DNA of 64,000 nucleotides. It comes from Atopobium sp. oral taxon 416 (GTDB taxonomy: Bacteria; Actinomycetota; Coriobacteriia; Coriobacteriales; Atopobiaceae). The notes under the pieces are model-generated. The model was not told where the DNA came from. It saw nothing but the letters and a program-made list of their open reading frames with translations, and ran no database searches. Each line of letters starts with the position of its first letter. Position 1 is the stretch's first letter. Location: positions 372,001 to 436,000 of the forward strand of contig NZ_CP072380.1 in NCBI RefSeq assembly GCF_018128285.1, written 5' to 3'. The position numbers and the translations under genes are program-made. This document shows, one piece after another, positions 974 to 47,023 of this stretch.

Positions 974-1495
974 CGTCGCGCGCAACGTCTCCGACGCGGC
1001 CCCCAAGCGGCTGCGGGCGGGGCTTTGCTTAGAGCTCGTGGAGATGTTCAACTGCGCCACGCTTAAGGAGGCCAGGGCCCGCCGCGACGAGATCGCCGAG
1101 GAGGCGCCCGAGGCGGTGGCGCGCCTGGACGCCGGGTTCGAGGATGCGATGACGGTCATGGCCCTTCCACCGGCGATGCGCAGGTGCACCAGGACGTCGA
1201 ACTACCTCGAGAGGCTCAACACAGAGGGGATGCGCCGGGCGAAGGTCATCAGCGTGTTCCCGAGCGAAGGCTCGCTAATAAGGCTCGTGGGGACCTACCT
1301 CATCGAGGAGAACGACAGGTGGGCCGCCAAGAGCAAGCAGTACTACCTGCCGGCGGTCGAGGAGCTATGAGAGGAGGAAGGGGGATCTCGAGGAGATAGC
1401 CCGCACACAGCGGCGGATGAGGTTCGCTTCGTGACGGCTCGCAGGGGCGTTTGCTTATGAGGCAATTTACACACGATTTCGGACTTGACTTGACT
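974..1495 (+). pseudogene. IS256/mutator-family transposase, C-terminal fragment
   Basis: Directly after the IS3 end the sequence enters the middle of an IS256-type transposase. It reads through LEERAR-like helices into RRCTRTSNYLERLN and ENDRWAAKSKQYYLPAVEEL, then a stop at 1368-1370. About 130 C-terminal residues remain; the catalytic N-terminal two thirds are missing. The 3' non-coding part (1371 to about 1495) ends in a sequence whose complement (GTCAAGTCCGAAATCGTGTG) recurs at 26354 and, with changes, near 48824, so it is probably the element's right terminal repeat. The same fragment occurs in opposite orientation at 26336-26681. Confidence 0.85.
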
Positions 1496-1506
1496 GAGCC
1501 ATGACA

Positions 1507-1562
1507 GGGGAATGATTCCCCCATAGTGCCCTATTGACAGTTTGGCAAGGCGAGTATAGCGT
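1507..1562 (+). promoter_or_regulatory. Candidate promoter and palindromic operator of the polysaccharide locus
   Basis: A perfect inverted repeat GGGGAAT-G-ATTCCCC lies at 1507-1521, immediately before a consensus -35 box TTGACA at 1534-1539. Possible -10 boxes are TATAGC (15-bp spacer) or TAGCGT (17-bp spacer), both weak. The first gene starts about 235 bp downstream, giving a long leader (1563-1795) in which no gene is seen. The palindrome position suggests an activator or repressor site; this is inference. Confidence 0.4.
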
Positions 1563-1795
1563 TATAAAATAGACTCTGGTACACGTCTCCCAGAAGATGG
1601 CGATATAAGGACATGTATTTCGGCTGGGGCTGGCTGTGCCTATATTTTTTCGTGGGTGAAACACAGTGCTGTTCTTTTTTGTATGCATATTGCTATGGTC
1701 TTTAGTGGGGGTTGGGGTTCTGTTGAGACGGCCTGACAATCACATCGTGTCGTTTGACGGGCGAGAATAGACAGAAGGGCAATCATACTCTCATC

Positions 1796-2473
1796 ATGAA
1801 GTTCGAGGATTCTGTGACTAAGCTTGAAAACTGTGGGGACACGCTTGTCGTGGCGCATAATGGATCCCATGGTGCCTACGAAGTGGGCAAGCGTACCTTT
1901 GACGTCCTGTCCCCCCTCTTTGTGATTGTGGAGTTCTCGTGGCTCTTCGCTCTGATAGCCCTTGCCATCAAGTTGGATGATTCCCAGGGGGTCGTTATCT
2001 TCAGGCAGACACGCGTGGGAAAGAAAGGGGACAGGACCTTCAGTATGTGGAAGTTTCGTTCCATGTGTTCCGATGCGAAGGAGCGGCTTGCGGGGCTCAT
2101 GCGTTACAACGAGAAGGATGGTCCCGCCTTCAAAATGGCGCACAACCCTAGGGACACACGTGTCGGTCACTTCATATGTAAGACATCCTTGGACGAGCTC
2201 CCCCAGTTCTTCAACGTACTCTTTGGACAGATGCCAATCGTGGGGTCTCATCGGGCGCTACCCAGCGAGGTTGCCCAGTACGCGCCTTACCAGCCCCACC
2301 GCCTCCTCTGCGATGCTGGTATCACCAGCTACTGGCAAGTCCAGCGCAACCGTGACAGTCTTACCTTCAATGAATGGGTCGGCCTCCTCTACGTGAAGAC
2401 CCGATCCTTCTTCACCGACTTGAAACTCATATTTCGGACAGTGGGCATGATCCTCATTGCGCGGGGATGCTAG
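1796..2473 (+). CDS. Priming sugar-phosphate transferase (polyprenyl-phosphate phosphoglycosyl transferase)
   Basis: This 225-residue bacterial sugar transferase (PF02397) would start polysaccharide synthesis by moving a sugar-1-phosphate from a nucleotide sugar to undecaprenyl phosphate at the inner face of the membrane. Visible features are one N-terminal membrane segment (about residues 29-51), the FRQTRVGKKG and MWKFRSM motifs, the catalytic DELPQFFNVLFGQM region and a C-terminal motif beginning ITSYWQVQ. It lacks the extra N-terminal multi-pass domain of WbaP/WcaJ enzymes, so it is of the short, PglC-like type. In the usual MSIVGPRP stretch it reads MPIVGSHRALPSE. The ATG at 1796 was chosen over an upstream TTG at 1754, which adds only 14 residues of no family character. 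It is the first gene of the locus; the sugar is not predictable. Confidence 0.88.
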   Translation: MKFEDSVTKLENCGDTLVVAHNGSHGAYEVGKRTFDVLSPLFVIVEFSWLFALIALAIKLDDSQGVVIFRQTRVGKKGDRTFSMWKFRSMCSDAKERLAGLMRYNEKDGPAFKMAHNPRDTRVGHFICKTSLDELPQFFNVLFGQMPIVGSHRALPSEVAQYAPYQPHRLLCDAGITSYWQVQRNRDSLTFNEWVGLLYVKTRSFFTDLKLIFRTVGMILIARGC

Positions 2474-2486
2474 CTGGCCTGTGGGT

Positions 2487-4919
2487 ATGAGGATTGCCAT
2501 GCTGGGACATAAACGCGTGCCATCGCGCGAGGGTGGCGTGGAAGTTGTAGTGACAGAGCTTGCCACGCGGATGGCCGCCCTCGGCCACGATGTGACCGTC
2601 TACAATCGCCAGGATCATGACGTGGCCGGCAGAGGCCTGGATCCCGTGGCGCCGGAGGAGTACGAAGGCGTTCGGATCAAGACGGTGCCCACTGTCGACG
2701 TGAGGGGACTTGCCGCTGCAAGTTCTTCGTACTTCGCGGTCCGCGCTGCCGTCGCCGACAGGCCAGACGTCATCCACTTCCATGCGGAGGGCCCCTGTGT
2801 CATGATTCCTCTGGCCCGTCGCGCGCACATCCGCAGCGTTGCCACGATACACGGACTCGACTGGCAACGTGCCAAGTGGGGCAGGCTCGCCTCGGGCTAT
2901 CTGAGGCATGGGGAGCGTCTCGCCGCCGCCCAGGCCGATGAGCTTATTGTCCTCAGTAGGAACGTCCAGGACTACTTCCGTGACACCTACGGTCGCGAGG
3001 CGCACTACATCCCCAACGGAGTGACGGTGAAGGCACCGGTTCCTGTGCAGACCATCGCGTCCAAGTATGGTCTCTCGGCAGCCTCCTACGTCCTTTTCGT
3101 GGGACGCATCGTTCCCGAGAAGGGCGTCCACTACCTCATAGAGGCCTGGCGAGGCGTGCGGACGGACAAGCGTCTTGTTATCGCTGGTGGCCCATCCGAC
3201 TCCCAGGCGTACTTCAACCGGATGAGGGACCTTGCGGGTGATGACCCTTCCATCCTCTTCACGGGCTTCGTGCAGGGTCGCGAGCTCGAGGAGCTCTACA
3301 GCAACGCCTACCTATACGTGCTTCCCTCAGATCTCGAGGGCATGCCTATGAGTCTCCTCGAGGCGATGTCATATGGCAACTGCTGTCTCACAAGCGACAT
3401 AGCGGAGTGCGCCGAAACCCTCAGTAGTGCGGGAGCCATGTTTCCGAGGGGGGACGTGGTGGCGCTGCGGAGCTCCCTCATTCAACTACTCAAGAATCCG
3501 GCGCACGTCTCTTCGCTAGGCATCCAGGCGCGCATGTACGTGTCGTTTGCCTATGGGTGGGACGCCGTTGTAGCACGGACGCTTGCCCTCTATCGGGGGG
3601 GGGGGGGGGGGGGGGGGGGGGGTGAGCTCCTCGCCTATATGAGAGTGCTGCTCGTGAACAAGTTCCACTATCCTAAGGGAGGGGCAGAGACCTATTACTT
3701 CGCACTCGGCGAGCGACTGGAGCAGATGGGCCATGATGTGGCCTACTTCTCCATGCGGCACCCTTCGAACGTGCCCTGTGCGCAGGATGCGTACTTTGTC
3801 ACCCAGCGTGAGTACAATGAGGCCCAAAACCCCATCAAGACATTACGGGACGGATGGTCGTTGGTGTATTCCCGCGAGGCTCGCAACAGCTTTGACGCGC
3901 TCCTGCGGGACTTCAGACCTGATGTGGTCCACCTGAACAACGTGCATCGCCAGATCACCCTCTCGATACTCGATGCACCCTCGCTTGGGGCCACTCCCGT
4001 TCTCTATACGGCACACGATTACATCACCGTGTGCCCCAATTACCTCATGCTCGATGGCGCCGGCGAGGTCTGCGACGCCTGCCTTGGTGGCCGTTTCGGC
4101 CAGTGCGTAGCACGATGTTGTATCAAGGGGTCGCGTGCGAAAAGCGTCCTCGCCGCCGTCGAGGCCAAGTACATTCAGCTCCACAGGCTCAACGAGAGAA
4201 TCGACAGGGTTATTGCTCCCTCGCGCTTCATGCGGTCGAAGCTGGTCGAGGGGGGATGGCCCGATGACAAGGTCGTATGGATGCAAAACTTCGCGAGCGA
4301 TGCCATCTACGACCAAGCTCGGGCACAAGGTGCCGACAACACGGACTACGAGCATCCCTACCTGCTCTTCTTCGGGCGCATCTCAAAGGAGAAGGGCGTG
4401 GACGTCCTTGTCAGGGCGTTTCAGGGCGTCATCGACACGCTTCCGGACAGCTGGCACATGGTCATCGCGGGCGAGGGTCCCGAGCGGACGGCGGTTGAGG
4501 CACTGTCCAAGAACATGCCAGGGGCCAATCGCGTCGAGTTCGTTGGCTTTCAGCAGGGAGATGCCTTGCGCGTAAATATAGAGAGAGCCTCCCTTGCCGT
4601 CACCGCCTCGCGTTGGCGCGAGAATATGCCCTATTCGGTCATCGAGGCATTTGGGGCGGGCACACCGGTCATCGGTTCGCGCATCGGCGGCATACCCGAA
4701 CTCGTGATGGACGGTAAGACGGGTCTGCTCTGCGAGCCCGGTGACGTACGGTCGCTTGCGGACGCCATCATGCGAGGCGTGCAGCTCTGTTCGGACATCG
4801 TCGACTACCATGCCATGCAACAGCGTTGTAAGGACTATGTGCTCGACCATTGCTCGCAGGATGCGTACATGGAGTCCCTAGTCCATCTGTATGAAGGGCT
4901 TATCGATGCCGAGAGTTAG
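2487..4919 (+). CDS. Two GT4 glycosyltransferases fused in frame through a G28 tract
   Basis: As read, one 810-residue protein. Residues 1-370 are a GT-B family 4 glycosyltransferase (starts MRIAMLGHKRVPSREGG; VGRIVPEKGVHYLIEAW; EGMPMSLLEAMSYGN acceptor/donor loop). Residues 371-379 are nine Gly from a run of 28 G at 3595-3622. Residues 385-810, beginning at the ATG at 3639, are a second GT4 enzyme (MRVLLVNKFHYPKGGAET; a Cys-rich insert CDACLGG...CVARCC; FFGRISKEKGVDVLVRAF; ENMPYSVIEAFGAGTPVIG). Both halves have family-normal length, so they are naturally two genes. With 29 (or 26) G the first gene stops at the TGA right after the tract; with 27 or 30 G it stops at a TGA overlapping the second ATG. 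Start ATG 2487 was chosen because the family N-terminus begins there. They would add successive sugars to the lipid-linked repeat unit in the cytoplasm. Confidence 0.85.
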   Translation: MRIAMLGHKRVPSREGGVEVVVTELATRMAALGHDVTVYNRQDHDVAGRGLDPVAPEEYEGVRIKTVPTVDVRGLAAASSSYFAVRAAVADRPDVIHFHAEGPCVMIPLARRAHIRSVATIHGLDWQRAKWGRLASGYLRHGERLAAAQADELIVLSRNVQDYFRDTYGREAHYIPNGVTVKAPVPVQTIASKYGLSAASYVLFVGRIVPEKGVHYLIEAWRGVRTDKRLVIAGGPSDSQAYFNRMRDLAGDDPSILFTGFVQGRELEELYSNAYLYVLPSDLEGMPMSLLEAMSYGNCCLTSDIAECAETLSSAGAMFPRGDVVALRSSLIQLLKNPAHVSSLGIQARMYVSFAYGWDAVVARTLALYRGGGGGGGGGELLAYMRVLLVNKFHYPKGGAETYYFALGERLEQMGHDVAYFSMRHPSNVPCAQDAYFVTQREYNEAQNPIKTLRDGWSLVYSREARNSFDALLRDFRPDVVHLNNVHRQITLSILDAPSLGATPVLYTAHDYITVCPNYLMLDGAGEVCDACLGGRFGQCVARCCIKGSRAKSVLAAVEAKYIQLHRLNERIDRVIAPSRFMRSKLVEGGWPDDKVVWMQNFASDAIYDQARAQGADNTDYEHPYLLFFGRISKEKGVDVLVRAFQGVIDTLPDSWHMVIAGEGPERTAVEALSKNMPGANRVEFVGFQQGDALRVNIERASLAVTASRWRENMPYSVIEAFGAGTPVIGSRIGGIPELVMDGKTGLLCEPGDVRSLADAIMRGVQLCSDIVDYHAMQQRCKDYVLDHCSQDAYMESLVHLYEGLIDAES
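3595..3622 (+). repeat. Homopolymeric G tract (28 G)
   Basis: Twenty-eight consecutive G lie between the end of the first glycosyltransferase domain and the ATG at 3639 of the second. No other homopolymer of comparable length was noticed in the window. Tracts of this kind are known slipped-strand contingency sites in surface-polysaccharide genes, but long homopolymers are also prone to sequencing and assembly error, so the exact count should not be trusted. Confidence 0.9.
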
Positions 4920-5943
4920 TGTCGTGGTGCCCATATTCAATACCAGACAGTATCTTCCCCAGTGCGTGGACAGCCTGCTCGGCCAGACGCTCGACGACAT
5001 TGAGATTATCCTGGTCGATGACGGTTCTCCCGATGGCGCAGGGGAGGTCGCTGACGCGTATGCATCGTGCCATAGGAACATCAGGGTTGTCCATCAGCCC
5101 AACGAGGGCCTTGGTCCCGCGAGGAACGTGGGCATTCGCCGGTGCATGGGCGACTACGTCGCCTTTGTCGACTCCGACGACTGGGTCGAGCCCACGATGT
5201 ACGAGCGCCTTTACGGCAAGGCGATGGAGTTGGGGTCGGACATCGTGGTGAGCGGACACTGTGATGTGACCAATGGACGCAAGACCTTTGTCAAGCCTCA
5301 TCCCCTTGCGGGCAGGACGCTGGAGGACAAGCAGGACATTCTTGGTGTGCGCAGGGAGCTCTACGGGCACGCTCCCGGTGATGCGGCTGTCGAGTCATTC
5401 CCGATGTCCGTGTGCATGTCACTGTACAGAAGATCCCTCATCGAGTCCTGCGGGCTCGCCTTCAGAAACGCGCTTTCCGAGGACACGTTATTCAACCTTG
5501 ATGCATATGGATCTGCCCGGAGGATTTCGTTCGTGGGATCGACCGACTACTGCTACCGAAAGGATGACCAGAGCTCCATTACCAAAACGTTCTCACGGGA
5601 GAAGCTGGGCCTCTATTCAGACTTTGTCGACGCCCTTGCCGCCCTCGCCCGCATGGAGCCCGATAGCGAGGACTGCATGCTGCGCGTAAGACGGACGGCG
5701 GTCGATTATGCCCGTCTGTACGTGGGCCTCGTGGCCACCAGCGACCTGGCGCCCCGAGAACAGCGCAGCGAGGTCCTCGGACTCATCGACTCGACGATGT
5801 TCCGGAGTTATTGCATGGACTTTCCCATCGATACCCTCCCCGTCCAGCAGCGTATCTTCCAGAGGAGCCTTGTCGGGAGGCACACGCGCACGGCGCTGTT
5901 TCTGCTGAGGATGAGACTTGCGATAAAGAAAGGCGGACGATGA
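4906..5943 (+). CDS. Family 2 glycosyltransferase
   Basis: A 345-residue GT-A enzyme. The N-terminus is typical: VSVVVPIFNTRQYLPQCVDS, then ILVDDGSPDG (nucleotide-binding Asp), NEGLGPARNVG and the metal-binding DSDDW. The ATG at 4906 was chosen because it places VSVVVPIFN four residues in; it overlaps the preceding gene by 14 bases, so the two are probably translationally coupled. The C-terminal 120 residues are helical and basic (ends LAIKKGGR), consistent with membrane association. It should transfer one sugar of the repeat unit; donor and acceptor cannot be read from the sequence. Confidence 0.87.
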   Translation: MPRVSVVVPIFNTRQYLPQCVDSLLGQTLDDIEIILVDDGSPDGAGEVADAYASCHRNIRVVHQPNEGLGPARNVGIRRCMGDYVAFVDSDDWVEPTMYERLYGKAMELGSDIVVSGHCDVTNGRKTFVKPHPLAGRTLEDKQDILGVRRELYGHAPGDAAVESFPMSVCMSLYRRSLIESCGLAFRNALSEDTLFNLDAYGSARRISFVGSTDYCYRKDDQSSITKTFSREKLGLYSDFVDALAALARMEPDSEDCMLRVRRTAVDYARLYVGLVATSDLAPREQRSEVLGLIDSTMFRSYCMDFPIDTLPVQQRIFQRSLVGRHTRTALFLLRMRLAIKKGGR

Positions 5944-6956
5944 TGGCAGGTCATATGAATCTCAGACGAGTATCCCATCGCGTTGCCGAGGAACTTCATG
6001 CGACACGCGCCATCGCCGGCGAGACCTCATGGCGAGATGCCCTCGACACGCTACGTGCCAAGGTGGACATCCAGGTGATGAACCGCAACGGGTTTCAGGA
6101 GCCCCCCGCAGTCCGCAACCGTCTCATACGTAAGCATGAGACGGTACTCGAGTATCTCGAGGCGAGATCCCACGGCTACTACGAGTCGTATGAATATGCG
6201 GCAGAGTTACCGCCGGGCGACCCAGACTTGGAGGGAAGAATCTGGCTGTGCTGGTGGCAGGGCATCGAGTGTGCCCCTGCCATCGTGAGAGCCTGCGTTG
6301 AATCCATATGCCGCAATGCGGACGGGCATACTGTGACCATCATTACGGACAGGAACTATCGCGATTATGTGCATATCCCCGACTGGGTGATGAGAAAGGT
6401 GGCGGAGGGGATCATTACGAGGACCAACCTCTCCGACCTCTTGAGGCTCAGTCTGCTGGCGGAGCACGGAGGCCTCTGGCTCGACGCTACCTTCTTCTGC
6501 TGCGGCCCGTTGGGGGACCTGGCCTTTGGACAACCCCTATTCTCGATCAAACGGCCTGACTACCTGCACGCCTCCGTCGCTTCGGGCTATTTTGCGGGCT
6601 ATTCGCTCGCCTGTAACACGGCGCACAGGAGGGTGTTCGCAACCATCAGGGACTTCTTCCTCGAGTACTGGCAGAAAAACGACTTCATGGTCGACTATCT
6701 CCTGGTCGACTACATGATCGTCCTGGCACAGAGGCATGACCCCTCCATAGCCGGGGCTTTCGATGCCATACGGCCGAACAACCCTCTCTGCGATGAGCTG
6801 GGCAAATGCTTGGGAGAGCCCTTCGACAGACAGAGATGGCGGGAGCTTTCGAGCAACACGAGCCTATTCAAGCTCACGTGGAAGCAATCGTTCCCCGTCC
6901 GCAAAGGCGAGGTACAGACATTCTATGGAGCTTTGCTAGGGGGAGATCTTACATGA
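5940..6956 (+). CDS. Capsular polysaccharide synthesis glycosyltransferase (PF05704-like)
   Basis: A 338-residue protein resembling the Caps_synth/mannosyltransferase OCH1-like group. Signatures are IWLCWWQGIECAP, IITDRNY, LSDLLRLSLLAEHGGLWLDA (the LWLDA corresponds to the DxD-type metal site) and a later SIKRPDY region. Two ATG codons, 5940 and 5943, overlap the TGA of the previous gene (ATGATG), so coupling is likely; either start is possible. The N-terminal 80 residues precede the conserved core and have no recognised domain. It is expected to act on the growing lipid-linked unit in the cytoplasm. Confidence 0.82.
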   Translation: MMAGHMNLRRVSHRVAEELHATRAIAGETSWRDALDTLRAKVDIQVMNRNGFQEPPAVRNRLIRKHETVLEYLEARSHGYYESYEYAAELPPGDPDLEGRIWLCWWQGIECAPAIVRACVESICRNADGHTVTIITDRNYRDYVHIPDWVMRKVAEGIITRTNLSDLLRLSLLAEHGGLWLDATFFCCGPLGDLAFGQPLFSIKRPDYLHASVASGYFAGYSLACNTAHRRVFATIRDFFLEYWQKNDFMVDYLLVDYMIVLAQRHDPSIAGAFDAIRPNNPLCDELGKCLGEPFDRQRWRELSSNTSLFKLTWKQSFPVRKGEVQTFYGALLGGDLT

Positions 6957-7025
6957 ACGTTTATTTATTAGAATAATCTGGTTGGCCTTGCACCGTTGGC
7001 CCGCTGCACCACTGAGGGGGATATC

Positions 7026-7730
7026 TTGATTGCCGGAATACATCAGCCATACTTCATGCCGTACCTTGGTTACTGGCAGCTGATAAACGTGGTCGATGTC
7101 TTTGCGTCCGCAGACAACTACAACTTTATCAGGGGAGGCTGGATACACCGGAACAGGATTCTGCGCCAGGGCAACATATGCTACTTCAACGTCACCATAA
7201 GCCACATGTCTCAGAACAGGTATATCTGTGACCACATGATTAAGCCTCTTGACGTGGGGGAGAGGCTTGGTATCCTGCGCGAGTACTATCGCAAGGCCCC
7301 CAACCTCGAGACGGGCCTGGACGTCATGCGCGATGCCTTGACCTGTGACACCCTTAACCTGGCGGATTTCCTATTTCATACCATCTCGGTTGTCTGTACC
7401 TACCTCGGCATCACTACGCGATTGGTGAAGACGTCTGACTATCCGCAGGATCCTACCTTGCGCAAGGAGGGTAGGATCTTCGATTACTGCAGGCAGCTGG
7501 GGGCTGACACCTACTACAACGCCATCGGGGGGCGGGAACTCTACACTTTTGACAGCTTCAGAGAGCATGGCCTGGCCCTCGGCTTTCTGGAATGCATCCC
7601 CGTCGCCTATCGGCAGCAAGCCCAGGAGTTTGTGCCTCGCCTCTCCATTATCGACGTCATCATGAACACCTCCCAGAAAGAGTCACAGGATATGCTTGCA
7701 AGCTGCAGGATCATCACGGAGCGCAACTAG
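7026..7730 (+). CDS. WbqC-family protein
   Basis: This 234-residue member of the WbqC-like family (PF08889) has the hallmark N-terminus IHQPYFMPYLGYWQL followed by FASADNYNFIRGGWIHRN. The family occurs in O-antigen and capsule loci, usually with amino-sugar genes; a role in sugar N-modification has been suggested but the reaction is not established. The start is a TTG at 7026 (MIAGIHQPYF) because a strong GAGGGGG ribosome site lies at 7014-7020; the longer TTG start at 6996 has none. The aminotransferase and acyltransferase genes downstream fit a modified amino sugar in the repeat unit (inference). Confidence 0.8.
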   Translation: MIAGIHQPYFMPYLGYWQLINVVDVFASADNYNFIRGGWIHRNRILRQGNICYFNVTISHMSQNRYICDHMIKPLDVGERLGILREYYRKAPNLETGLDVMRDALTCDTLNLADFLFHTISVVCTYLGITTRLVKTSDYPQDPTLRKEGRIFDYCRQLGADTYYNAIGGRELYTFDSFREHGLALGFLECIPVAYRQQAQEFVPRLSIIDVIMNTSQKESQDMLASCRIITERN

Positions 7731-7733
7731 CTC

Positions 7734-9041
7734 ATGGGCGAACGGTACATTGACGTCTCCTATGACGAGGACAACGGCATCCGGTTGGGTGACGCCTTCA
7801 GGGTCGTGGGCAAGCATCTGCTCGTGTGCCTGCTAGCGGCTGCCACCTTGGGGATGCTCACCTTCGCGTACACGACGAGGCAGATTACCCCGCACTACCA
7901 GTCTTCCTTCACGGTGTATATCACCAACCGTCCTGCCAACCAGCAGGTGGCCACGGAGTCTCCCACCACTAACTACCTGAGCAGTGGTGACGTCGACGCC
8001 TCGAGCGCCCTGGCAAACACATACGCCTTCATCTTCGAGAGTAGTGAGATGGTCTCGAGGGCCGTCAAGGGCGCGGGCCTGGACGGCTATGATTCTCGGA
8101 TACTCGATGGCACGCTTGTCGCCACCAAAGTCGAGCAGAAGACTCCCCTCGTGACCGTGACCGTGACAGCCGATTCCCCCCAGGATGCCTATGACATTGC
8201 GGTGTCCCTTATCGATATCGCACCAGACTACATCTCGGGTATCATCAAGGAGAGCTCAATGGCGGTAGTGGAGTCGCCAAGGGTGAGTACTACGCAGAGC
8301 TCGCCCTCCCTCCTGCTCAACACGGTGGCCGGCTCCCTCGTTGGGTTTGTAGTGGCGGCTCTCGTTGTCGTGGGTAAGGACGGCAAGAACAAGAACGTCG
8401 GGAGCAAGGAGGAGTTGAAGGAGCGCTTTGGGATACCCTCCGTCGTCGACGTTGGCGAGCTCTTGCCCCTGCTGCCGCGCCATGCCTCACGCACGATTGG
8501 AGTGATGGACGTTGACGGCAAGGGTTTGGCCGCATCGAATGCCATCGCGCTTGCGACGTCGTTTGCTGCGAGGGGCGCGCGGGTTCTCCTCATCGACTGT
8601 GATGTCAGTAGCGATGCCTGCAGCAAGGCGCTGGGGGCGAGACGGTTCGGCGGGCTGACGGATCTTCTCCTCAAGCATGGCCAGGCCTCCGAAGTCGTGC
8701 AGGAGGTAGGACAGGGGATTGACTTCCTTGCGTCGGGAAGGCCGATTGACGGCTTTGGAAGGCGCGTCCAGGATGAGCGCATGGCGTTGCTGCTTAGGGG
8801 GTTCGAAAAGAGCTACGACTATGTCGTTGCGGTCGTCCCCTCCGCTCTCTCAGATGACAGCGCCTTGGTCTTGGCGGACTTGTTCGGCAAGGTCTTTCTC
8901 TCGGTCTGTGCGGGAAAGACGAGGAAGGCCGACGTTGCCGAGACGCTGAGGCGCCTGCGGCTCGCAGACGTGCAGATTGTCGGCTTCATATACGGCGAGC
9001 GTCACCAGCGTGCCGGACACGTACCCTTACACCAGCGCTAG
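7734..9041 (+). CDS. Wzz chain-length regulator fused to a degenerate tyrosine-kinase-like domain
   Basis: A 435-residue protein. Residues 1-220 are a Wzz/CpsC-type co-polymerase: first membrane helix about 24-46, an extracellular region (YQSSFTVYITN...), second helix about 196-217. Residues 230-435 resemble CpsD/BY-kinase ATPases: the Walker A' motif (ARVLLIDCD) is present and the fold order matches. The P-loop, however, reads DVDGKGLAASNAIALA, with Gly where Ser/Thr is required, the Walker B region (YDYVVAVVPSAL) lacks the usual D-x-P pattern, and there is no C-terminal tyrosine cluster. It therefore probably controls chain length without kinase activity. No CpsB-type phosphatase is seen nearby. 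The start ATG 7734 follows the previous stop by 3 bases. Confidence 0.83.
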   Translation: MGERYIDVSYDEDNGIRLGDAFRVVGKHLLVCLLAAATLGMLTFAYTTRQITPHYQSSFTVYITNRPANQQVATESPTTNYLSSGDVDASSALANTYAFIFESSEMVSRAVKGAGLDGYDSRILDGTLVATKVEQKTPLVTVTVTADSPQDAYDIAVSLIDIAPDYISGIIKESSMAVVESPRVSTTQSSPSLLLNTVAGSLVGFVVAALVVVGKDGKNKNVGSKEELKERFGIPSVVDVGELLPLLPRHASRTIGVMDVDGKGLAASNAIALATSFAARGARVLLIDCDVSSDACSKALGARRFGGLTDLLLKHGQASEVVQEVGQGIDFLASGRPIDGFGRRVQDERMALLLRGFEKSYDYVVAVVPSALSDDSALVLADLFGKVFLSVCAGKTRKADVAETLRRLRLADVQIVGFIYGERHQRAGHVPLHQR

Positions 9042-9043
9042 CC

Positions 9044-10423
9044 ATGGCGGATGGTATGCACAGCGCTGGTGTCGAGCTACGATCATCACCCAGGAGGATG
9101 GAGGGTGCGGGTCGGTGGCTGACCATGCGCCGTCTGAGGGATGTCTGGATTGGGAGGAAGAGCGGGACCCTGATCTGGGGTGAGGCGTGCCTGCTGGCAA
9201 CCTTTGGGTTCCTGCGTGATATCCTCGGCGCCCCAGCGATGATTACTTATCTTTTCGACGTCATCAATGTGTTCCTCTTCGTCGCTATCCTCGTGCGGAA
9301 GAAGTACGACAACAACGGGAGGTACTATCGTTCTGCTTTTGCACTCGTACTGGTGTTCCTGTTCCTTACGCTGCTAAGAGCCCTCACGGTTGGTGGTTCT
9401 GCGGTGCTGTATCTGTGGGGCCTCAGGAATACGTTCCGGTTCTATGTGTTCTTCACCTGCTGCGTGGCACTTTGGGGCGCTCGGGATGTCCTGCGTATAT
9501 CTGACTTCCTCAAGGTCCTCTTCTTCCTGAACGTGCCCCTCTGCATGCTCGAATACGCCATGGGTTACTCCGGGGACTACATCGGCGGCTCCTTTGGCGT
9601 GCAGCAGGGGGGTAACGGTTATCTCAACATCCTGCTCGTCATCACGACGACCATCTATGTTACGGAGTATCTGGCAGGAAGGACGTCCATCTTCAAGCTC
9701 TCATTAGTGCTTGCCCTATCCTTCTATATGATGGCCGTCGCGGAACTCAAGGTATACTTCCTTGAACTGATGATTGTCGTGTTCGTGGCGACCCTCAGCG
9801 AAAGCCTGACCGTGCGTTCGCTGACCCTTGCCCTTGTTATGCTGGCGGGCATTATCGTCGGTCTGTATATCATGCAGTTCTTCTTCAGTGGCTCGGGCAT
9901 CGACTTCTTCACAAGTGACGCGCTGGCGGCCTACATGGGAGACGCAGGCTACACAGGCACAGGTGACCTCAGTCGCATGAATGCACTGTCGCGTATCACG
10001 TCGATGTTTTTCTCGGGAGACCCGATGAGGTTCCTCTTTGGCTTTGGTCTTGGCAACTGCAGCTATTCCTCGAACTTCGCGATGCTAACGAGCTCTTTCT
10101 ACCATTACTTCAGCTGGCTACATTATGCGTGGTTCTCGGATGCATACGTGTACCTCGAGACAGGGCTCGTTGGCCTTGTGTGTTTCGAGGCGTTCTTTGT
10201 CCTCGTTCTCGTCGTGAGCCGACTCAGGCGATACAGGGACTCGGGCTTGAGAACAGCGGTCAATTGTACCAGCGTCATTGCGCTGATGGCGATATTGCTC
10301 TCGGTCTACAACAGCTCCCTGACCGTGGAGTCGGGCTATCTGGTATATATGTTCCTTGCTGTGCCATTCATCTTGGACAAATACAGAAAGACGGGAGATG
10401 CTACGCATGGTTCCAGCGTTTAG
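9044..10423 (+). CDS. Wzy-like polysaccharide polymerase (membrane protein)
   Basis: A 459-residue protein that is almost entirely hydrophobic, with about 10-12 predicted membrane helices and a larger loop around residues 285-345 (GSGIDFFTSDALAAYMGD... and the FGFGLGNCSYSS region), the layout of O-antigen ligase/polymerase proteins. It would join lipid-linked repeat units on the outer face of the membrane. Polymerases have little sequence conservation, so the assignment rests on topology and on being flanked by Wzz and Wzx. The ATG at 9044 is two bases after the previous stop; later internal starts (ATG 9101, ATG 9125) are possible because the first 40 residues are not membrane-like. Confidence 0.72.
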   Translation: MADGMHSAGVELRSSPRRMEGAGRWLTMRRLRDVWIGRKSGTLIWGEACLLATFGFLRDILGAPAMITYLFDVINVFLFVAILVRKKYDNNGRYYRSAFALVLVFLFLTLLRALTVGGSAVLYLWGLRNTFRFYVFFTCCVALWGARDVLRISDFLKVLFFLNVPLCMLEYAMGYSGDYIGGSFGVQQGGNGYLNILLVITTTIYVTEYLAGRTSIFKLSLVLALSFYMMAVAELKVYFLELMIVVFVATLSESLTVRSLTLALVMLAGIIVGLYIMQFFFSGSGIDFFTSDALAAYMGDAGYTGTGDLSRMNALSRITSMFFSGDPMRFLFGFGLGNCSYSSNFAMLTSSFYHYFSWLHYAWFSDAYVYLETGLVGLVCFEAFFVLVLVVSRLRRYRDSGLRTAVNCTSVIALMAILLSVYNSSLTVESGYLVYMFLAVPFILDKYRKTGDATHGSSV

Positions 10424-11039
10424 TGGCGGCGTCTGGTATATGGTCGCCTATATTATCGGAGACGTCCTCACATCAATCTACCAGCCATTCCTGTTTGCGT
10501 TGACACTCACGGTTTTCGTCATGTTCTTCTTCATCTATACCCACGAGCACGGGTGGTCCCTGCATGAGTCCGCATCACGTGGGGCGAGGACGTGGATCGA
10601 GGCGTTCCGGACGTCGAAGCTCTTCAGGATAGAGTTCCTCCTTGTGCTGTTCGTCGTGCTGGTGCTCTTCAAGACACTGTATTCACGCGATATCTGGTTC
10701 GACCCGCTCTCCGACGTCTTAGGTGGTTGGGGGCTGTACGACAGAGACGGCAAGTTCACGGCCGAGGCGGTCGAGAACTTCATCCTGTTCGTGCCGTTTG
10801 GTCTGCTGCTCTCCGACGTGTTGTGCAGGAGGGGGAGTGTCGCCGGCACAGAGGCCCGCGCCTCTGCATTCATGAAGTCGGTCCAGGCCTCGGCGCTCCT
10901 CTCCCTCTTCATTGAGTGTTCCCAGTTGCTGTTCCACCTGGGAACCTTCCAGCTCTCCGACCTCGCGTACAACACGGCAGGCGGGCTTGTGGGTGCGGGC
11001 GCTTACTATCTCGTCTCCAGGCGGAGAGAGGGCCGTTAG
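10407..11039 (+). CDS. VanZ-like membrane protein
   Basis: A 210-residue protein with four to five membrane helices. The C-terminal half fits the VanZ-like family (PF04892): ENFILFVPFGLLLSDVL, then FIECSQLLFHLGTFQLSDLAYNTAGG, where the E-x-x-Q and SDxxxNTxGG residues are the family hallmarks. The N-terminal half adds two helices. Function in polysaccharide loci is not known; VanZ itself gives low-level teicoplanin resistance by an unknown route. The ATG 10407 was chosen because GGGAG at 10393-10397 is well placed; ATG 10398 is an alternative. It overlaps the polymerase gene by 17 bases. Confidence 0.78.
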   Translation: MVPAFSGGVWYMVAYIIGDVLTSIYQPFLFALTLTVFVMFFFIYTHEHGWSLHESASRGARTWIEAFRTSKLFRIEFLLVLFVVLVLFKTLYSRDIWFDPLSDVLGGWGLYDRDGKFTAEAVENFILFVPFGLLLSDVLCRRGSVAGTEARASAFMKSVQASALLSLFIECSQLLFHLGTFQLSDLAYNTAGGLVGAGAYYLVSRRREGR

Positions 11040-11108
11040 CGTGGTTGTGGCAGCCGCGGAGAGCAGACGCGAAGAGGCTTGTCGTCGGACAGGAAGACGG
11101 AGGAGCGC

Positions 11109-12563
11109 GTGAAAGAGGAACAGCTCTCACCAAAGATATCGCTGGCCACCAACGCAGCGTTCAACGTTCTGTACAAGGTGCTCAACGTGGTCTTTCCGCT
11201 TATCTCGGCCGTGTACCTCGCCCGCGTGCTACTGCCTGCGGGCGTCGGCAAAATCTCGTATGCGCAGAACATCGTCTCGTACATGGTGCTGCTGGGCGCC
11301 TTGGGAATCCCGACGTATGGCGTGAGGGAGGTCGCCAAGCGGAGGAACAGCCGGGAGGCTACGGACAAGCTGTTCAGCGAGGTGCTGGTCATCAACTTCT
11401 GCTCGACAAGTGTTGCCCTCCTGCTCTACGCGTATCTGGTGGTCACGTACTTCTCCAGTGACGTCCCACTCTATGTGGCTTGCGGTCTGCCCATCGTCTT
11501 TAACTACATCAATGTTGACTGGTTCTACCAAGGCAAGGAGGAGTATGTCTACATCGCCGTCAGGAGCATCCTGATCAAAGGACTCTCTGTCGTGGCAATC
11601 CTCCTCTTCGTGCGCAGCCAGAGTGACTACGTGACGAGCGCCCTTATCTCATCGCTCGCGATTTGCGGAAACTACGTCTTCAACATCGTGCGTGCTCGCA
11701 GATATGTCACATTCACGTTCCATGGGTTACAGCTCAGGCAGCATCTGCGTCCCATCTTCGTCCTGGTGGCCTGCGCTGCCGGTGCCCAGCTTTACAACAA
11801 CATCGACGTGCTCATGCTGGGCGCCTCCCAGAGCTCCAACGTGGTCGGCTGGTACAACAACGCACAGAAGGTCATCGGGTTGGTACTGACGCTCGCTACG
11901 GCCATATCCGAGGTTTTCCTGCCCAGGATTAGTTATCTGTACGAGACGGACAAGGAGCGCTTTGACAGGCTCGTCTCTATGGGCTTCCGGATTGTGCTCT
12001 TCTTTGCCCTGCCGCTGACCGTTGGAACCGTGCTTGTTGCCAACGATTTGGTGGTGGTCATGTTCGGAGAGCCCTTCAGGCCTGCTGCACTCACGATACA
12101 GCTGCTGGCGCCTCTGGTCCTCATCAAGGGACTTGGGGATATTGTGTCATACCAGGTTATTATCAGCTCCGGCCAGGAAAACAGACTCCTCGCTGCATAC
12201 TTCCTAGCGGCGGCGGTCAACGTGGCGCTAAACATGGTGCTGATACTCCGATTCGCGCAGAACGGGGCTGCCCTCGCCTCCGTTGTCACCGAGCTCCTGG
12301 TAAACGCCATTCTGCTGCACTACTCGAGAAGGATTCTCAAGGTGAGCCTGGACTGGCCGTTCATGATAGGCACGTTCTTGGCATGCGTCGCCATGGCCGT
12401 GCCCATGCTCGTCGCAAACTTCCTTGTGCACAATGTCTTTGTCGGGCTTTTCGTGGACGTGGTTCTGGCCGTCATCACCTACTTCGCCTTCTGCCTGGTA
12501 ACCAAGAACGAGGTTCTCCTCATGATTATGGACCTGGTCAGAAAGAAGAAGAGGCCCGCATGA
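11109..12563 (+). CDS. Wzx-type polysaccharide flippase
   Basis: A 484-residue MATE/MOP superfamily flippase with about 14 helices. The opening ATNAAFNVLYKVLNVVFPLISAVYLARVL and GKISYAQNIVSYMVLLGALGIPTYG are typical of RfbX/Wzx proteins, as is INVDWFYQGKEEY. It would move the undecaprenyl-linked repeat unit to the outer leaflet. The start is a GTG at 11109, with GGAGG at 11099-11103 giving a 5-base spacer; the TTG at 11079 has no ribosome site. The gene ends ATGA-overlapped with a possible longer start of the next gene. Confidence 0.9.
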   Translation: MKEEQLSPKISLATNAAFNVLYKVLNVVFPLISAVYLARVLLPAGVGKISYAQNIVSYMVLLGALGIPTYGVREVAKRRNSREATDKLFSEVLVINFCSTSVALLLYAYLVVTYFSSDVPLYVACGLPIVFNYINVDWFYQGKEEYVYIAVRSILIKGLSVVAILLFVRSQSDYVTSALISSLAICGNYVFNIVRARRYVTFTFHGLQLRQHLRPIFVLVACAAGAQLYNNIDVLMLGASQSSNVVGWYNNAQKVIGLVLTLATAISEVFLPRISYLYETDKERFDRLVSMGFRIVLFFALPLTVGTVLVANDLVVVMFGEPFRPAALTIQLLAPLVLIKGLGDIVSYQVIISSGQENRLLAAYFLAAAVNVALNMVLILRFAQNGAALASVVTELLVNAILLHYSRRILKVSLDWPFMIGTFLACVAMAVPMLVANFLVHNVFVGLFVDVVLAVITYFAFCLVTKNEVLLMIMDLVRKKKRPA

Positions 12564-12616
12564 CGGAGGGCTTGGAATCTACGTGCGTTGCGGGGAAAAG
12601 GAGAAGTGAGGGAAGA

Positions 12617-13624
12617 ATGGAGTACGGCGAGGTGGTGGTCACAGTCCTTTGCGTTTGCTACAACCACGCAAGGTCACTGCGACGCGCGCTGGAGAGTCTC
12701 GTGTCGCAGAAGACGGACTTCGCGTACGAGTTGCTCGTCCACGATGACGCGTCGACGGACGGCTCGCAGGATATCATCAGGGAGTTCCAGCGTAGATATC
12801 CCCAGATAGTGCGTCCCATGTTGGAGGAGGAGAACCAGTACGGGCAGGGCCGGAACTTCCTGGGCAAGATGCTCGCCGAGGCACGGGGGAGCTACATCGC
12901 CTACTGCGAAACTGACGACTTTTGGTCCGACTCCCTCAAGCTCCAGCTGCAGGTCGATGCTCTCAGGACCCATCCGGAGTGCTCGTTCTGCGTACACAAC
13001 ACCCAGGGAGTTAATATCAGGGGCGACCGGCTTCCGCAGCACTTCCCGCCCATCAGGGTAGACGCCGGCGCTATCACGCCCGAGGAGTATCTCCACCACG
13101 AACTGTTCGAGGACAAGTGGATGTTCCAGCTCAGTAGCTTCATGTCTCGGCGCGAGACGATGGTGGAGTACGAGGAAATCTCCGCTAGCGAGTTTCCCAG
13201 CAAATACTACCAAGTGGGCGACCAGCCGCTGTTCCTGTTCTGCCTGACGAAGGGGTCCGCCTGGTACATCGATAGGGACATGTCGTGCTACACTGTAGAT
13301 AGCGGCGGGTTCATGACGAGCCTGGGGAAGGGCGGCTCGTTCTGCGAGAGGGTGCAGCTCGGATATATACAGGGCCTTGAGGCGTTTGATGCCTATAGTC
13401 ATGGAAGATTTGCCACTGCGATACAGCGGGCCGTCCTTAGGCGCAAGTTTCTGTACGACCTCGCGACGCACAACTACCGTGCGATCTCTAATGGAAAGTA
13501 CAAGGATCTCAACAGCGAGCTCGGCAGCCTCCGGAGGCTGCGCTACCGCTTCCTCGGCCGTTTGCGCCACGGTCGACTCCAGGACCATTCCGCCGAGGAA
13601 CCCCCACACGAGATCGTAAGATAG
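12617..13624 (+). CDS. Family 2 glycosyltransferase
   Basis: A 335-residue GT-A enzyme. The core reads VTVLCVCYNHARSLRRALES, LLVHDDASTDGSQDI, then CETDDFW as the metal-binding Asp pair. The middle (HELFEDKWMFQLSSFMSRR; YYQVGDQPLFLFCL) is typical of rhamnosyl/galactosyl-type GT2 enzymes that act on cell-surface glycans. ATG 12617 was chosen for its GAGGG site 5-6 bases upstream and because GT2 cores start within ten residues; ATG 12560, overlapping the flippase stop, would add 19 residues. It completes the set of four visible glycosyltransferase genes plus the PF05704 enzyme. Confidence 0.85.
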   Translation: MEYGEVVVTVLCVCYNHARSLRRALESLVSQKTDFAYELLVHDDASTDGSQDIIREFQRRYPQIVRPMLEEENQYGQGRNFLGKMLAEARGSYIAYCETDDFWSDSLKLQLQVDALRTHPECSFCVHNTQGVNIRGDRLPQHFPPIRVDAGAITPEEYLHHELFEDKWMFQLSSFMSRRETMVEYEEISASEFPSKYYQVGDQPLFLFCLTKGSAWYIDRDMSCYTVDSGGFMTSLGKGGSFCERVQLGYIQGLEAFDAYSHGRFATAIQRAVLRRKFLYDLATHNYRAISNGKYKDLNSELGSLRRLRYRFLGRLRHGRLQDHSAEEPPHEIVR

Positions 13625-13655
13625 CGACAAGGACGATTTGGAAGTACGATGTCAT

Positions 13656-14774
13656 ATGGACAACAAGACGTTGGTCACGCGCCCCTCTATACCCACGCTC
13701 GACGAGTACGTCGAGGAGATACACGACATCTGGGACTCGCGGTGGCTGACGAACATGGGCGAGAAGCACGAGCGGCTGCGAGGACTCTTGCGAGACTACC
13801 TGAGCGTGTCGCACATCGACCTGCTCACGAACGGGCATATGTCACTGGAGTTAGCGCTGCAGGCCTTGAAGCTCTCCGGCGAGGTCATCACGACCCCGTT
13901 CACCTTTGCCTCGACTACACACGCGATTGTCCGGAACAACCTAACCCCCGTCTTCTGCGACATCGATCCTACAGACTTCACGATTGACACGGCAAGGATT
14001 GAGGACCTCATCACTGACCAAACGAGTGCGATTATGCCCGTTCATGTGTATGGGAACGTCTGCGACGTGGAGGAGATTCAGCGTATCGCGCGCAAGTACG
14101 GCCTGAAGGTCATCTATGATGCTGCACACGCCTTTGGGGTCCGCTACGGGGGGAAGGGCATCGGCAGCTTTGGTGACGTCTCCTGTTTCAGCTTTCACGC
14201 AACTAAAGTGTTCAATACCATAGAGGGCGGTGCCGCCTGCTACGATGACGAGGACTTTGGTCTGGAACTCTACCGTCTCAAGAATTTCGGCATTCGCGGA
14301 CCAGAGAGAGTGGATGGCGTCGGGGCCAACGCAAAGATGAACGAGTTCTGCGCGGCTATGGGCATCTGCAACCTGAGGCACATCGATGACGAAATAGCCA
14401 AGAGGGGCGTGATCGTGGAGCGCTACCGAAGTCACTTGGCTGACGTAGGGGGCATCCAGCTGAACCCCGTCCAGGAGGGTGTCACGCCCAACTATGCCTA
14501 CTTCCCCATCGTCGTGGACGAACGGGCTTTTGGTGCAAGCAGGAACGAGATTTTCGACGAACTCCAGCGTAACGGGGTCATGGCGCGCAAGTATTTCTAT
14601 CCCATCACGAGTTCGTATGACTGTTACCACGGTCGCTTTAACTCCAATCTCACCCCCGTCGCCCTCCACGTGAGTAAGCGAGTGCTCACCCTGCCGCTCT
14701 ATGCTGACATCAGGCTTAAAGAAGTGGATAGAATCTGTGACATCATCTGCGGTCTCCGCAGGATGTGCTACTAA
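13656..14774 (+). CDS. DegT/DnrJ/EryC1/StrS-family sugar aminotransferase
   Basis: A 372-residue PLP enzyme. It has LLTNGHMSLELALQAL (phosphate-cup region), ITTPFTFASTTHAI, VYDAAHAFGV with the pyridine-binding Asp, and the Schiff-base lysine at about residue 184 in SFHATKVFNTIEGG. Family members transfer an amino group from Glu or Gln to a nucleotide 4-keto or 3-keto sugar. No dehydratase gene is visible in the window, so the keto-sugar must be made by enzymes coded elsewhere. Its place next to an acyltransferase and a WbqC protein points to an N-acylated amino sugar (inference). Confidence 0.9.
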   Translation: MDNKTLVTRPSIPTLDEYVEEIHDIWDSRWLTNMGEKHERLRGLLRDYLSVSHIDLLTNGHMSLELALQALKLSGEVITTPFTFASTTHAIVRNNLTPVFCDIDPTDFTIDTARIEDLITDQTSAIMPVHVYGNVCDVEEIQRIARKYGLKVIYDAAHAFGVRYGGKGIGSFGDVSCFSFHATKVFNTIEGGAACYDDEDFGLELYRLKNFGIRGPERVDGVGANAKMNEFCAAMGICNLRHIDDEIAKRGVIVERYRSHLADVGGIQLNPVQEGVTPNYAYFPIVVDERAFGASRNEIFDELQRNGVMARKYFYPITSSYDCYHGRFNSNLTPVALHVSKRVLTLPLYADIRLKEVDRICDIICGLRRMCY

Positions 14775-14887
14775 TCCGTCCACAATTGAATAGGTGTCAG
14801 TGTCCCCTGAAGGGGAATGGCTTACCCCTGGATGCGTGTCTATTGTGCACGCCGAGGGTCCACAGACGATTTGAACGGAGCACGACC

Positions 14888-15631
14888 ATGTTCTTGACCG
14901 AGCTTGCAAAGCGTGTCGTCCTTCGTGAGAGGCGCAGCTCCGATGCGTACTGCGACTTCCTAAGGGACAAGGGTATACGGGTGGGGAGGGGGACCGAATT
15001 CTTCTCTCCCGGCAGTGTGCTTGTCGACCTCACGAGGCCTTACATGATTTCCATCGGGGACAATGTCCAAATCACCAGCAACGTGACCATCCTCACCCAC
15101 GACTACAGCTGGTCGGTGATCAAGGGAATGTACGGCGACGTCTTAGGATCCTGTGCTGAGGTCTCCATAGGCAGTAATGTCTTCATCGGCATGAACACTA
15201 CCATCCTGAAGGGGACCCACATTGGCGACAACGTGGTTATTGGCGCGGGGTCTTTGGTCAACCATGACATAGCCTCGGGGTGCGTCGCGGCGGGATCGCC
15301 CTGCGAGCCCATCTGCACCATCGAGGAGTACGCTGAGAGGTATCGTGCGCGACAGGTTGACGAGGCCTACTACCAATACCGCGGATACGTCTTGAGGTAC
15401 GGTCGCCCCGCCCGCAAGGAGGAGTTCAGGGAGTTTTTCTGGCTCTTTTGCGATAGGGGGGAGGTCGTCGCCACGCCCGAGTTCGATGCGGTGATGGATC
15501 TTGTCGAGGGTTCGCGTCCCCTGAGCGAAAGGCGCTTCAACATCGTCGCGCCCACCCGCCCCTTTGAAACGTTCGAGGACTTTGTGGCATACTGTGATAG
15601 CCGCATGGCCGAGGAACTCCGCGGCGCATAG
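14888..15631 (+). CDS. Hexapeptide-repeat acyltransferase
   Basis: A 247-residue left-handed beta-helix acyltransferase. Hexapeptide turns are seen around residues 40-150 (ISIGDNVQITSNVTIL, VSIGSNVFIGMNTTILKG, IGDNVVIGAGSLV), with a catalytic-type His in ILTHDYSW and the AAGSPCEPI end typical of the maltose/galactoside acetyltransferase group. An extra 100-residue C-terminal helical part (EEFREFFWLF...) is present. ATG 14888 was chosen with CGGAG 7 bases upstream; an earlier in-frame TTG at 14765 overlaps the aminotransferase gene and has no family character. Likely O- or N-acetylates a sugar of the repeat unit. Confidence 0.85.
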   Translation: MFLTELAKRVVLRERRSSDAYCDFLRDKGIRVGRGTEFFSPGSVLVDLTRPYMISIGDNVQITSNVTILTHDYSWSVIKGMYGDVLGSCAEVSIGSNVFIGMNTTILKGTHIGDNVVIGAGSLVNHDIASGCVAAGSPCEPICTIEEYAERYRARQVDEAYYQYRGYVLRYGRPARKEEFREFFWLFCDRGEVVATPEFDAVMDLVEGSRPLSERRFNIVAPTRPFETFEDFVAYCDSRMAEELRGA

Positions 15632-15707
15632 GTGCTTGCTAATTTGATAGGTGACGAGTCCGGGGCTGACGGGGAGGTTCTCAGTTCCGATCCAGGAAGG
15701 ATGTACG

Positions 15708-17033
15708 TTGAAGAAACTGCTGATGCTAGGCACATCTTTGGGAAGCCTTGATATCGTCCGTACGGCACAGGCCCTGGGTTGCCATGTCATCGTGACCGAC
15801 TACCTGCCACCCGAACTCTCACTAGCCAAACGGGGGGCGGATGAGCAGTGGATGATCAGCACGGGGGCGGTGGACGAGCTTGAGCTGCGATGCCGCAAAG
15901 AGGGCGTTGATGCCGTGTTCGCGGGCGTAAGTGAGTTCAATCTCGATCGCGTGCTCGACCTGTGCGAGAGGCTGGGTCTGCCTTGCTACTTTGACCGAAA
16001 CGCTTGGGAGTATGCCCGCAATAAGGCGAGGTTTAAAGAGCTGTGCCGTGTGACGGGCGTGCCTGTTGCGGGCGAGTTCAGGCTCGACGAGGGTGATATT
16101 ATCGCTCTGCACGCCGGTTCTCCGGAGGCACCCGACGCGTCGCTACGCTTCCCCGTTGTGGTCAAGCCCGTGGACGGCTGTGGCAACCAAGGCGTGAGTT
16201 TCTGCCATGACAGGACGGAGCTCCTCGAGGCATGGCAGCTGGTGAGAGAGGTCTCGGACAATCCGCGCGTGCTCGTCGAGGAGTACGTGAGCGGCGTGGA
16301 GTACTGCAACGTCTACGCCTTAGCCGACGGCGAGGCATCACTGCTGTGTGTGCGTACGGGATTCAAACAGCCTGGTTATCCCACCAACCTGTACATCCTT
16401 GGCACGACCGTCGCGGAACATGTGGAGGAATACGTGCGTGACATCAACCCCGCCGTGACCCGCATGCTCAAGGAGGCTGGCTGTCATGACGGCCTTGCCT
16501 GGATACAGACCATCCGTGATAATGAGGGCAGGTACAGCGTCCTCGAGATGGGTCATCGCCTCAGTGCGGACATGGTGTTCGATAAGATGGTTACCATGAC
16601 AGGCTTCGATGCCGTGAGGTGGATGGTGGAGTGCCAGCTCGGGGTGAGGCATACTGCCGACCAGCTCCCCCAGTCGCAGGAGCATGCGTTCAGGGACTGT
16701 GCGAGCGCCTACTTACTGTTTGCGGAACGGGCAGGGGTCGTCTCTCAGATAGTGGGTGTAGAGACAGTTGCCAACTGGGCGGGGCCCTTGACCCGCCAGG
16801 AGGAGTCCGTCTCCGTGGAGCTGCTCATCCATCCCGGTGACGCGGTGAAACAGCACCAGCTTGTGGGGAAGGTCACTTTCCACTCGGTGGACTGTGACGG
16901 GCTTTGCGAGATGGTGCGGTTCATCAACCGTGAGTTGAGGATTGTCGATGATGACGGGCACAACATGTTCGTTCGCTTCACCGATCTTGGGCGTGTGTCC
17001 GCGACCTACGAGAGGTCCCTGGAGTCTTGGTAG
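15708..17033 (+). CDS. ATP-grasp carboxylate-amine ligase
   Basis: A 441-residue ATP-grasp enzyme. The N-terminal Rossmann-like part (KKLLMLGTSLGSLDIVRTAQ) is followed by the ATP-grasp core: FPVVVKPVDGCGNQGVSF, LVEEYVSGVEYCN and the metal-binding SVLEMGHRLSADM. Such enzymes join a carboxylate to an amine using ATP; in polysaccharide loci they may add an amino acid or other acid to a sugar. The substrate is unknown. The start is a TTG at 15708, with a strong AGGAAGG site at 15694-15700 and the family start immediately after it; the ATG-less upstream extension from 15651 is not supported. It is the last intact gene of the polysaccharide locus; no T-rich terminator was noticed after it. Confidence 0.85.
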   Translation: MKKLLMLGTSLGSLDIVRTAQALGCHVIVTDYLPPELSLAKRGADEQWMISTGAVDELELRCRKEGVDAVFAGVSEFNLDRVLDLCERLGLPCYFDRNAWEYARNKARFKELCRVTGVPVAGEFRLDEGDIIALHAGSPEAPDASLRFPVVVKPVDGCGNQGVSFCHDRTELLEAWQLVREVSDNPRVLVEEYVSGVEYCNVYALADGEASLLCVRTGFKQPGYPTNLYILGTTVAEHVEEYVRDINPAVTRMLKEAGCHDGLAWIQTIRDNEGRYSVLEMGHRLSADMVFDKMVTMTGFDAVRWMVECQLGVRHTADQLPQSQEHAFRDCASAYLLFAERAGVVSQIVGVETVANWAGPLTRQEESVSVELLIHPGDAVKQHQLVGKVTFHSVDCDGLCEMVRFINRELRIVDDDGHNMFVRFTDLGRVSATYERSLESW

Positions 17034-45714: not shown

Positions 45715-46994
<1,280 letters not shown>

Positions 46995-47023
46995 TCCTTT
47001 TCTAGCGAAGGTGAGGAGTCACT

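Follow-up and report, generated by a model that had tools for sequence, protein, structure and literature searches.

A long G-tract between two capsule-locus glycosyltransferase genes of Atopobium sp. oral taxon 416 whose length may decide between fused and separate enzymes

Two glycosyltransferase genes of Atopobium sp. oral taxon 416 are joined by a homopolymer of 28 G residues on the plus strand (3595..3622). Does the length of this tract decide whether the two enzymes are made as one protein or as two, and is the tract a switch? All positions refer to the window, the whole stretch of 64,000 nucleotides that was analysed (contig NZ_CP072380.1, positions 372,001 to 436,000). The tract was read from the letters and counted by script, and it is the sole homopolymer of at least 8 within the 64-kb window. 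A pattern of ten Gs gave 19 overlapping matches, every one within the tract, against a mean of 0.07 and a maximum of 2 in 100 shuffled windows. The observed count was reached in 0 of the 100 shuffles, and the tract length is far beyond chance; the zero-order expectation for a G28 is ~1e-9 per genome when 28% G is assumed.

The flanking genes both encode GT4 glycosyltransferases, here called GT1 and GT2. GT1 (2487..3594, plus strand; Pfam PF13692, PF00534 and PF13439) is whole before the tract and ends in ...RTLALYR. GT2 (3639..4919, plus strand; PF00534, PF13692 and PF13439) has its own ATG at 3639 and encodes 426 aa, and the alignments of its relatives begin at residue 1. In each enzyme the N- and C-terminal GT4-type domains score above the Pfam cut-off and cover most of the length. 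According to the scripted frame count from the ATG at 2487, G28 leaves a single open frame that runs to the end of GT2 at 4919, a fusion of 810 aa. With one G more (G29) GT1 is 379 aa long and ends at a TGA immediately 3′ of the tract (3623..3625, plus strand), the state of n = 2 mod 3. With one G less (G27) GT1 is 384 aa long, and its stop, the TGA at 3640-3642, overlaps the GT2 start in an ATGA (3639..3642, plus strand), the state of n = 0 mod 3. The GT2 ATG lies 16 bases from the end of the tract. This three-state pattern recurred with a period of 3 G when tested by script from G18 to G35, and by frame count and Pfam the GT1 and GT2 domains are whole in all three frames. An initial annotation, made from the letters, had described two complete GT4 enzymes joined in one frame by G28 at this position, which proved exact by letters, script and Pfam. 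Its hand-counted frames (a TGA behind the tract at +1 G, the ATGA overlap at −1 G and the 810-residue fusion) were reproduced by the script, which also agrees for G18 to G35 that two of three tract lengths give separate proteins.

Two frames give alternative C-termini and the third gives a fusion, which is the pattern of C-terminal phase variation. Judged from the sequence, the repeat also has the corresponding place, at the 3′ end of the first gene and behind a complete predicted catalytic domain. A single assembly supplies the figure of 28. Neither this exact length nor the fused state that follows from it is reliable: a miscount of one or two would mean that the sequenced cell did not carry the fused state. 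Folding of the junction RNA was uninformative (z −0.40). G-quadruplexes lie outside the model of the folding program.

The tract lies in a polysaccharide locus; the genes given here with coordinates are on the plus strand. Upstream of GT1 is the initiating sugar-phosphate transferase (Bac_transf by Pfam/NCBIfam, 1754..2473). Behind GT2 follow, by Pfam, a glycosyltransferase of the GT2 family (4909..5943), a Caps_synth family glycosyltransferase (5937..6956), a WbqC-like protein (7002..7730) and a Wzz-like chain-length protein (7734..9041), which scores 26.6 bits for Wzz (cut-off 25.5) and has a weak AAA_31 match of 22.3, below the cut-off of 27. Next come a membrane-like protein of 459 aa (9044..10423), a VanZ-like gene and a Wzx-type flippase (Polysacc_synt by Pfam, 11079..12563). 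PF02397, PF01943 and PF02706 are above cut-off, so the initiating transferase, the Wzx flippase and the chain-length protein are present. The 459-aa ORF had zero Pfam or NCBIfam matches and is a putative Wzy polymerase by position alone. By its gene content the locus is of the Wzx/Wzy type for a capsule or exopolysaccharide, with the Wzy candidate placed by position only, and GT1 and GT2 would belong to a surface-structure locus, as is expected for a contingency locus. Broken transposase-like frames were seen by eye to the left of the locus, before ~1440.

How the two genes meet in relatives was taken from one scan of named genomes, using the best 80 of 437 loci that encode a relative. GT2 was adjacent in 49 of these loci, more than 100 bases off in 11, and without a relative in 20. 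Among the best 80 of 437 loci, the junctions of the 49 adjacent pairs were a 4-base overlap in 14, a 1-base overlap in 6 and a 20-base overlap in 2; gaps measured 0-4 bases in 11 pairs, 5-20 bases in 7 and 21-100 bases in 9. The two 20-base overlaps, L084 and L099, are not fusions. In the same 49 pairs the GT1 frames end 1-21 residues past the point where the tract starts. With G27 the two genes would meet as they most often do in these pairs, by the 4-base overlap (14/49). Upstream of GT2, at a distance of 5-20 bases, 26 of the 49 have a Shine-Dalgarno-like 5-mer, compared with 1006 of 9800 control windows inside GT1; the other 23 lack it. The longest G-run between the relatives' genes is 5, found in 4 of the 49 pairs. 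The simplest history suggested by these junctions starts from an overlapping junction with a G-rich ribosome-binding site, which then expanded into the tract. Against such an origin, the 16 bases between the tract and the GT2 start are farther than is usual for a ribosome-binding site, and the motif is lacking in 23 of the 49 pairs.

A second genome carries the tract. In Olsenella sp. Marseille-P4559, among the best 80 of 437 loci, both enzymes are 94% identical to GT1 and GT2, and a poly-G is present at the identical junction. It is counted among the 11 loci with GT2 more than 100 bases off because of debris in the junction, where the assembly is broken: G16 is followed by 113 other bases, nine Ns, a T and then G99-C-G26, so that length and frame are unreadable. 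The comparison of tract length with relatives, as the initial annotation had proposed, thus found one other genome with a junction tract and could draw no length from it. The bases flanking the tract are identical in the two genomes for 31 positions before and 42 behind; an equally long identity arose in 213 of 5000 shuffles, so the conservation of these 73 bases is not clearly exceptional. Among 140 family genomes scanned with the gene pair, 20 gave some match, and a match above 90% that included the junction was found only in the own genome and in Marseille-P4559. The two are placed in different genera in the genome collection used (g1 and g29), and the NCBI family of Marseille-P4559 is Atopobiaceae.

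The two genomes have the stretch 1494..17094 in common at 89-93% nucleotide identity. In a core control (45708-48540, by eye secY-adk-map) the identity to Marseille-P4559 is 69%, and to two genomes of the own genus 75%. From the high identity of the capsule locus against that of the core, the locus, tract included, has probably moved between genera by horizontal transfer. Between the two genomes dN is 0.030 and dS 0.255 for GT1, and dN is 0.025 and dS 0.169 for GT2; both enzymes are under purifying selection, which fits the use of both in both hosts.

These comparisons also bear on the reality of the tract. Since another genus has poly-G at this very junction, in a genome assembled separately, the tract is real and only its length is doubtful; at the level of sequence, the long G-run at the junction can be taken as confirmed. 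G14 or longer runs occur in 20 of the 140 family genomes, and some lie at the ends of contigs or within debris, which shows that assembly can by itself produce poly-G; because the poly-G junction is common to two genomes, a pure assembly product is a poor fit here, and the count is still untrustworthy. The initial annotation had named a sequencing-length error as an alternative, and had set relatives with a short junction, together with an artefactual tract, against its reading. What holds of this is that the count of 28 is doubtful and that 0 of the 49 adjacent pairs among the best 80 of 437 loci is fused; the artefact is contradicted by the poly-G of Marseille-P4559.

Other G-tracts of the same genome speak to instability. 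In 3.0 Mb there are three tracts of at least 14, G28, G16 and G21, which lie at the capsule locus and at two pilin/adhesin loci. G16 (C1:692352) and G21 (C1:995211) sit in two copies of one repeat that are ~97% identical, with 202 of 204 bases identical before the tract and 154 of 157 after it. G16 precedes, by ~110 bases, a frame of 1087 aa that has pilin-type and LPXTG domains; the frame that follows G21 at ~550 bases is 717 aa long and has von Willebrand domains. Since the flanks are the same and the lengths differ, these tracts have changed length in their own genome. By eye, the layout upstream of the pilus genes is TTGCGT-TTTC-G(n)-TAGACT, promoter-like with the tract as spacer, in which G13 would give 17 bases, and ON/OFF transcription of pili is possible. 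In a genome of the same family and another genus (G060, L178 2064-2082), a G19 followed by TAGAAT stands 44 bases upstream of a frame of 598 aa that has Cna_B and adhesin domains, an arrangement resembling that of the pilus tracts. All seven G-tracts of at least 9 in the own genome are oriented by position, the four below 1.0 Mb having G on the plus strand and the three above 2.4 Mb on the minus strand, as if G-runs kept one orientation relative to replication.

Mismatch repair was searched with the two domains MutS_I and NucS_C. The MutS_I domain was found in 0 of 6 genomes including the own one (controls positive in 11 of 14), and NucS_C likewise in 0 of 6 (controls positive in 7 of 14). Without known mismatch repair, long runs are expected to slip freely. 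The junction tract is thus probably hypermutable, as far as sequence can tell.

Similar junctions were looked for across the order. G8 followed by RTGARR within 24 bases occurs in 171 of 395 genomes. From the part of these places that was listed, 18 regions were picked by eye and the frames were counted in each; in 0 of these 18 does the assembled length join two frames of gene size. Among the 18, protein families were looked up in L205, L207 and L213 only. In L204 a G14 lies 75 codons into an open frame of 857. In L205, L207 and L212 the G-tract stands just before a start codon. L207 (G12, 2446-2457) and L212 (G11, 2500-2510), from two genomes of the order, are a like site with different tract lengths; in each a frame of 514 aa follows, its ATG 4 bases from the G12 and 6 bases from the G11. 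The frame behind the G12, looked up in L207 only, has a LuxR-type HTH domain. In L213 a G9 lies between cytidine deaminase and pyrimidine nucleoside phosphorylase, a nucleoside-metabolism pair, and short G-runs at coupled junctions can accordingly be incidental.

One junction resembles the present one. In the same-family genome G018 a G8 (L174 9390-9397) links the frames of a GT4 and a GT2-family enzyme, 702 aa in all, and G7 would give a GTGA overlap. It may be a second junction tract in a capsule locus, and we treat it as a lead only because G8 is short and because the closest relative found, in G014, is 59% identical and covers the GT4 part only. A G11 (L174 8261-8271) lies near the end of the preceding frame, which is acetyltransferase-like by eye. 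Elsewhere in this single-contig genome, ~80 bases at C1:1500686-1500757 (L124) are nearly all C and are followed by a long A-run, possibly an assembly artefact.

We lean, by somewhat better than an even chance, to the reading of a mobile Wzx/Wzy-type capsule locus in which G28 is a genuine contingency tract, derived from a binding site, altered by slippage, and setting the ending of GT1 by its length modulo 3. The tract would have arisen from a G-rich ribosome-binding site of the kind found at the GT1/GT2 junction of many relatives, and slipped-strand mispairing at replication would alter its length. This slippage would be little checked because a known mismatch-repair recognition protein was not found. 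At n = 1 mod 3 GT1 would be joined to GT2 through a glycine linker; at n = 0 mod 3 the two would share the ATGA overlap seen in relatives, with translational coupling; and at n = 2 mod 3 GT1 would stop at the tract, 13 bases upstream of the GT2 start. We infer the binding-site origin, the slippage at the junction, the protein products and any effect on the glycan from the sequence. Because both catalytic domains are intact in every state and neither enzyme is cut, a switch would act through tethering and the GT1:GT2 ratio, not through presence or absence, and any effect would come from these or from the downstream genes. A stronger form of the idea is a heritable, reversible switch between free and linked glycosyltransferases that alters substrate hand-over and the capsule repeat or its amount, the module having moved with its tract. 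We regard this form as rather unlikely, with tethering of the two enzymes as a selected function being possible.

Since the tract lies close to the ribosome-binding site, an effect on expression is a serious rival. Tract length could tune the coupling of GT2, perhaps also the passage of transcript or ribosome through G-rich RNA, and thereby move GT2 and the downstream capsule genes up or down, with the fusion as a by-product. This account, to which we give clearly less than an even chance, draws on the ribosome-binding-site-like motif at the place of the tract in 26 of the 49 pairs (best 80 of 437 loci), on the one frame that yields the commonest overlap of relatives, and on the tracts just before start codons elsewhere in the order (L205, L207, L212). 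In a published Campylobacter case, the frame state of cj0045 is thought to affect coupling to cj0044 (PMC8355987). The expression account has to contend with a frame that is open through GT2 at the assembled length, so that a fused product would form.

It is improbable, in our estimate, that the tract is real and neutral, that is, a hypermutable run which persists because every length spares both enzymes and which serves no selected switch. The wholeness of both domains in all three frames would permit this, runs could expand freely where neither MutS_I nor NucS_C was found, and ordinary genes, too, can have G-runs at their junctions (L213). However, the tract is present in two genera, and a mere three tracts of at least 14 in 3.0 Mb, placed at the capsule and two pilin/adhesin loci, are unlike free expansion. 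That a short or non-repetitive junction was misassembled as a long G-run we consider very improbable: long G homopolymers are error-prone, the Marseille-P4559 assembly breaks exactly at the junction and the count of 28 is from one assembly, but poly-G stands at the identical junction in the genome of another genus, assembled separately, and the own genome is a single contig with clean tract flanks.

If the frames act as read, the contingency tract would be a natural experiment on linking two glycosyltransferases of the same pathway, with the linker set by one repeat. It also suggests that, in Atopobiaceae, capsule and pili may both undergo phase variation through G-tracts.

The initial annotation had considered switching of architecture unusual. 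This is a fair point and not a new one, as states with fusion have already been described (PMC2823697, PMC5320596, PMC5953494). In the accessible parts of these papers, fusion to the next gene as a phase state goes under C-terminal phase variation, and the published examples of the fusion type rest on sequence data. A closer case than the systems named below was not found in the accessible parts of PMC3711429 and PMC3936762, and the words 'fusion' and 'fused' are absent from the text of PMC11868660. A search for papers naming both Olsenella and phase variation gave two, each with the latter term once.

The following comparisons likewise draw on the accessible parts of the papers cited. In Neisseria lgt and pgl, poly-G tracts in surface-glycan transferase genes give ON/OFF variation (PMC5953494). 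Those tracts switch the enzyme itself on or off, whereas the GT1/GT2 tract truncates neither enzyme in any frame. Homopolymer tracts are numerous and variable in Gardnerella (PMC11287997). In Bifidobacterium breve bbr_0113 and bbr_1889, slippage in pilus G-tracts has one length that joins two reading frames (PMC9187656). As here, these are G-tracts in an actinobacterial surface locus; in contrast to two whole enzymes, the frames are parts of one pilus gene and the outcome is ON/OFF. For Helicobacter canadensis HCAN_0660/HCAN_0661, the frame of a G-tract would decide between two proteins and one, a case called 'perhaps unprecedented' in 2010 (PMC2823697). Both are hypothetical proteins, the second of 82 aa, whereas both domains of the present pair are identifiable enzymes. 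A poly-A tract in meningococcal pglB2 is said to mediate fusion with the downstream phosphoglycosyltransferase gene (PMC5320596); the review PMC11130364 yielded no passage about this fusion. It is like GT1/GT2 in that a homopolymer fuses two glycan-pathway genes, and unlike it in being poly-A, in protein glycosylation and in a Gram-negative host.

Two further Neisseria genes come near in layout. In N. gonorrhoeae NGK_1211, described in 2016, two of the frames differ in the C-terminus they give, while the third continues into NGK_1212 as a fusion (PMC5320596), and in N. meningitidis kdtA (NMB0014) a fusion with NMB0013 at G8 was noted in 2018 (PMC5953494). The repeat lies near the 3′ end of the gene in both, as in GT1. 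Compared with these Neisseria fusions, both partners here transfer sugars and belong to a single capsule locus, the host is actinobacterial, and the tract length is 28 against 8-10 in kdtA. By sequence, the present tract, with its one assembled length, would best be filed as C-terminal phase variation with fusion. What this case adds is two whole capsule enzymes, a tract longer than in the cited examples, an Atopobiaceae actinobacterium as host and a tract-bearing locus in two genera.
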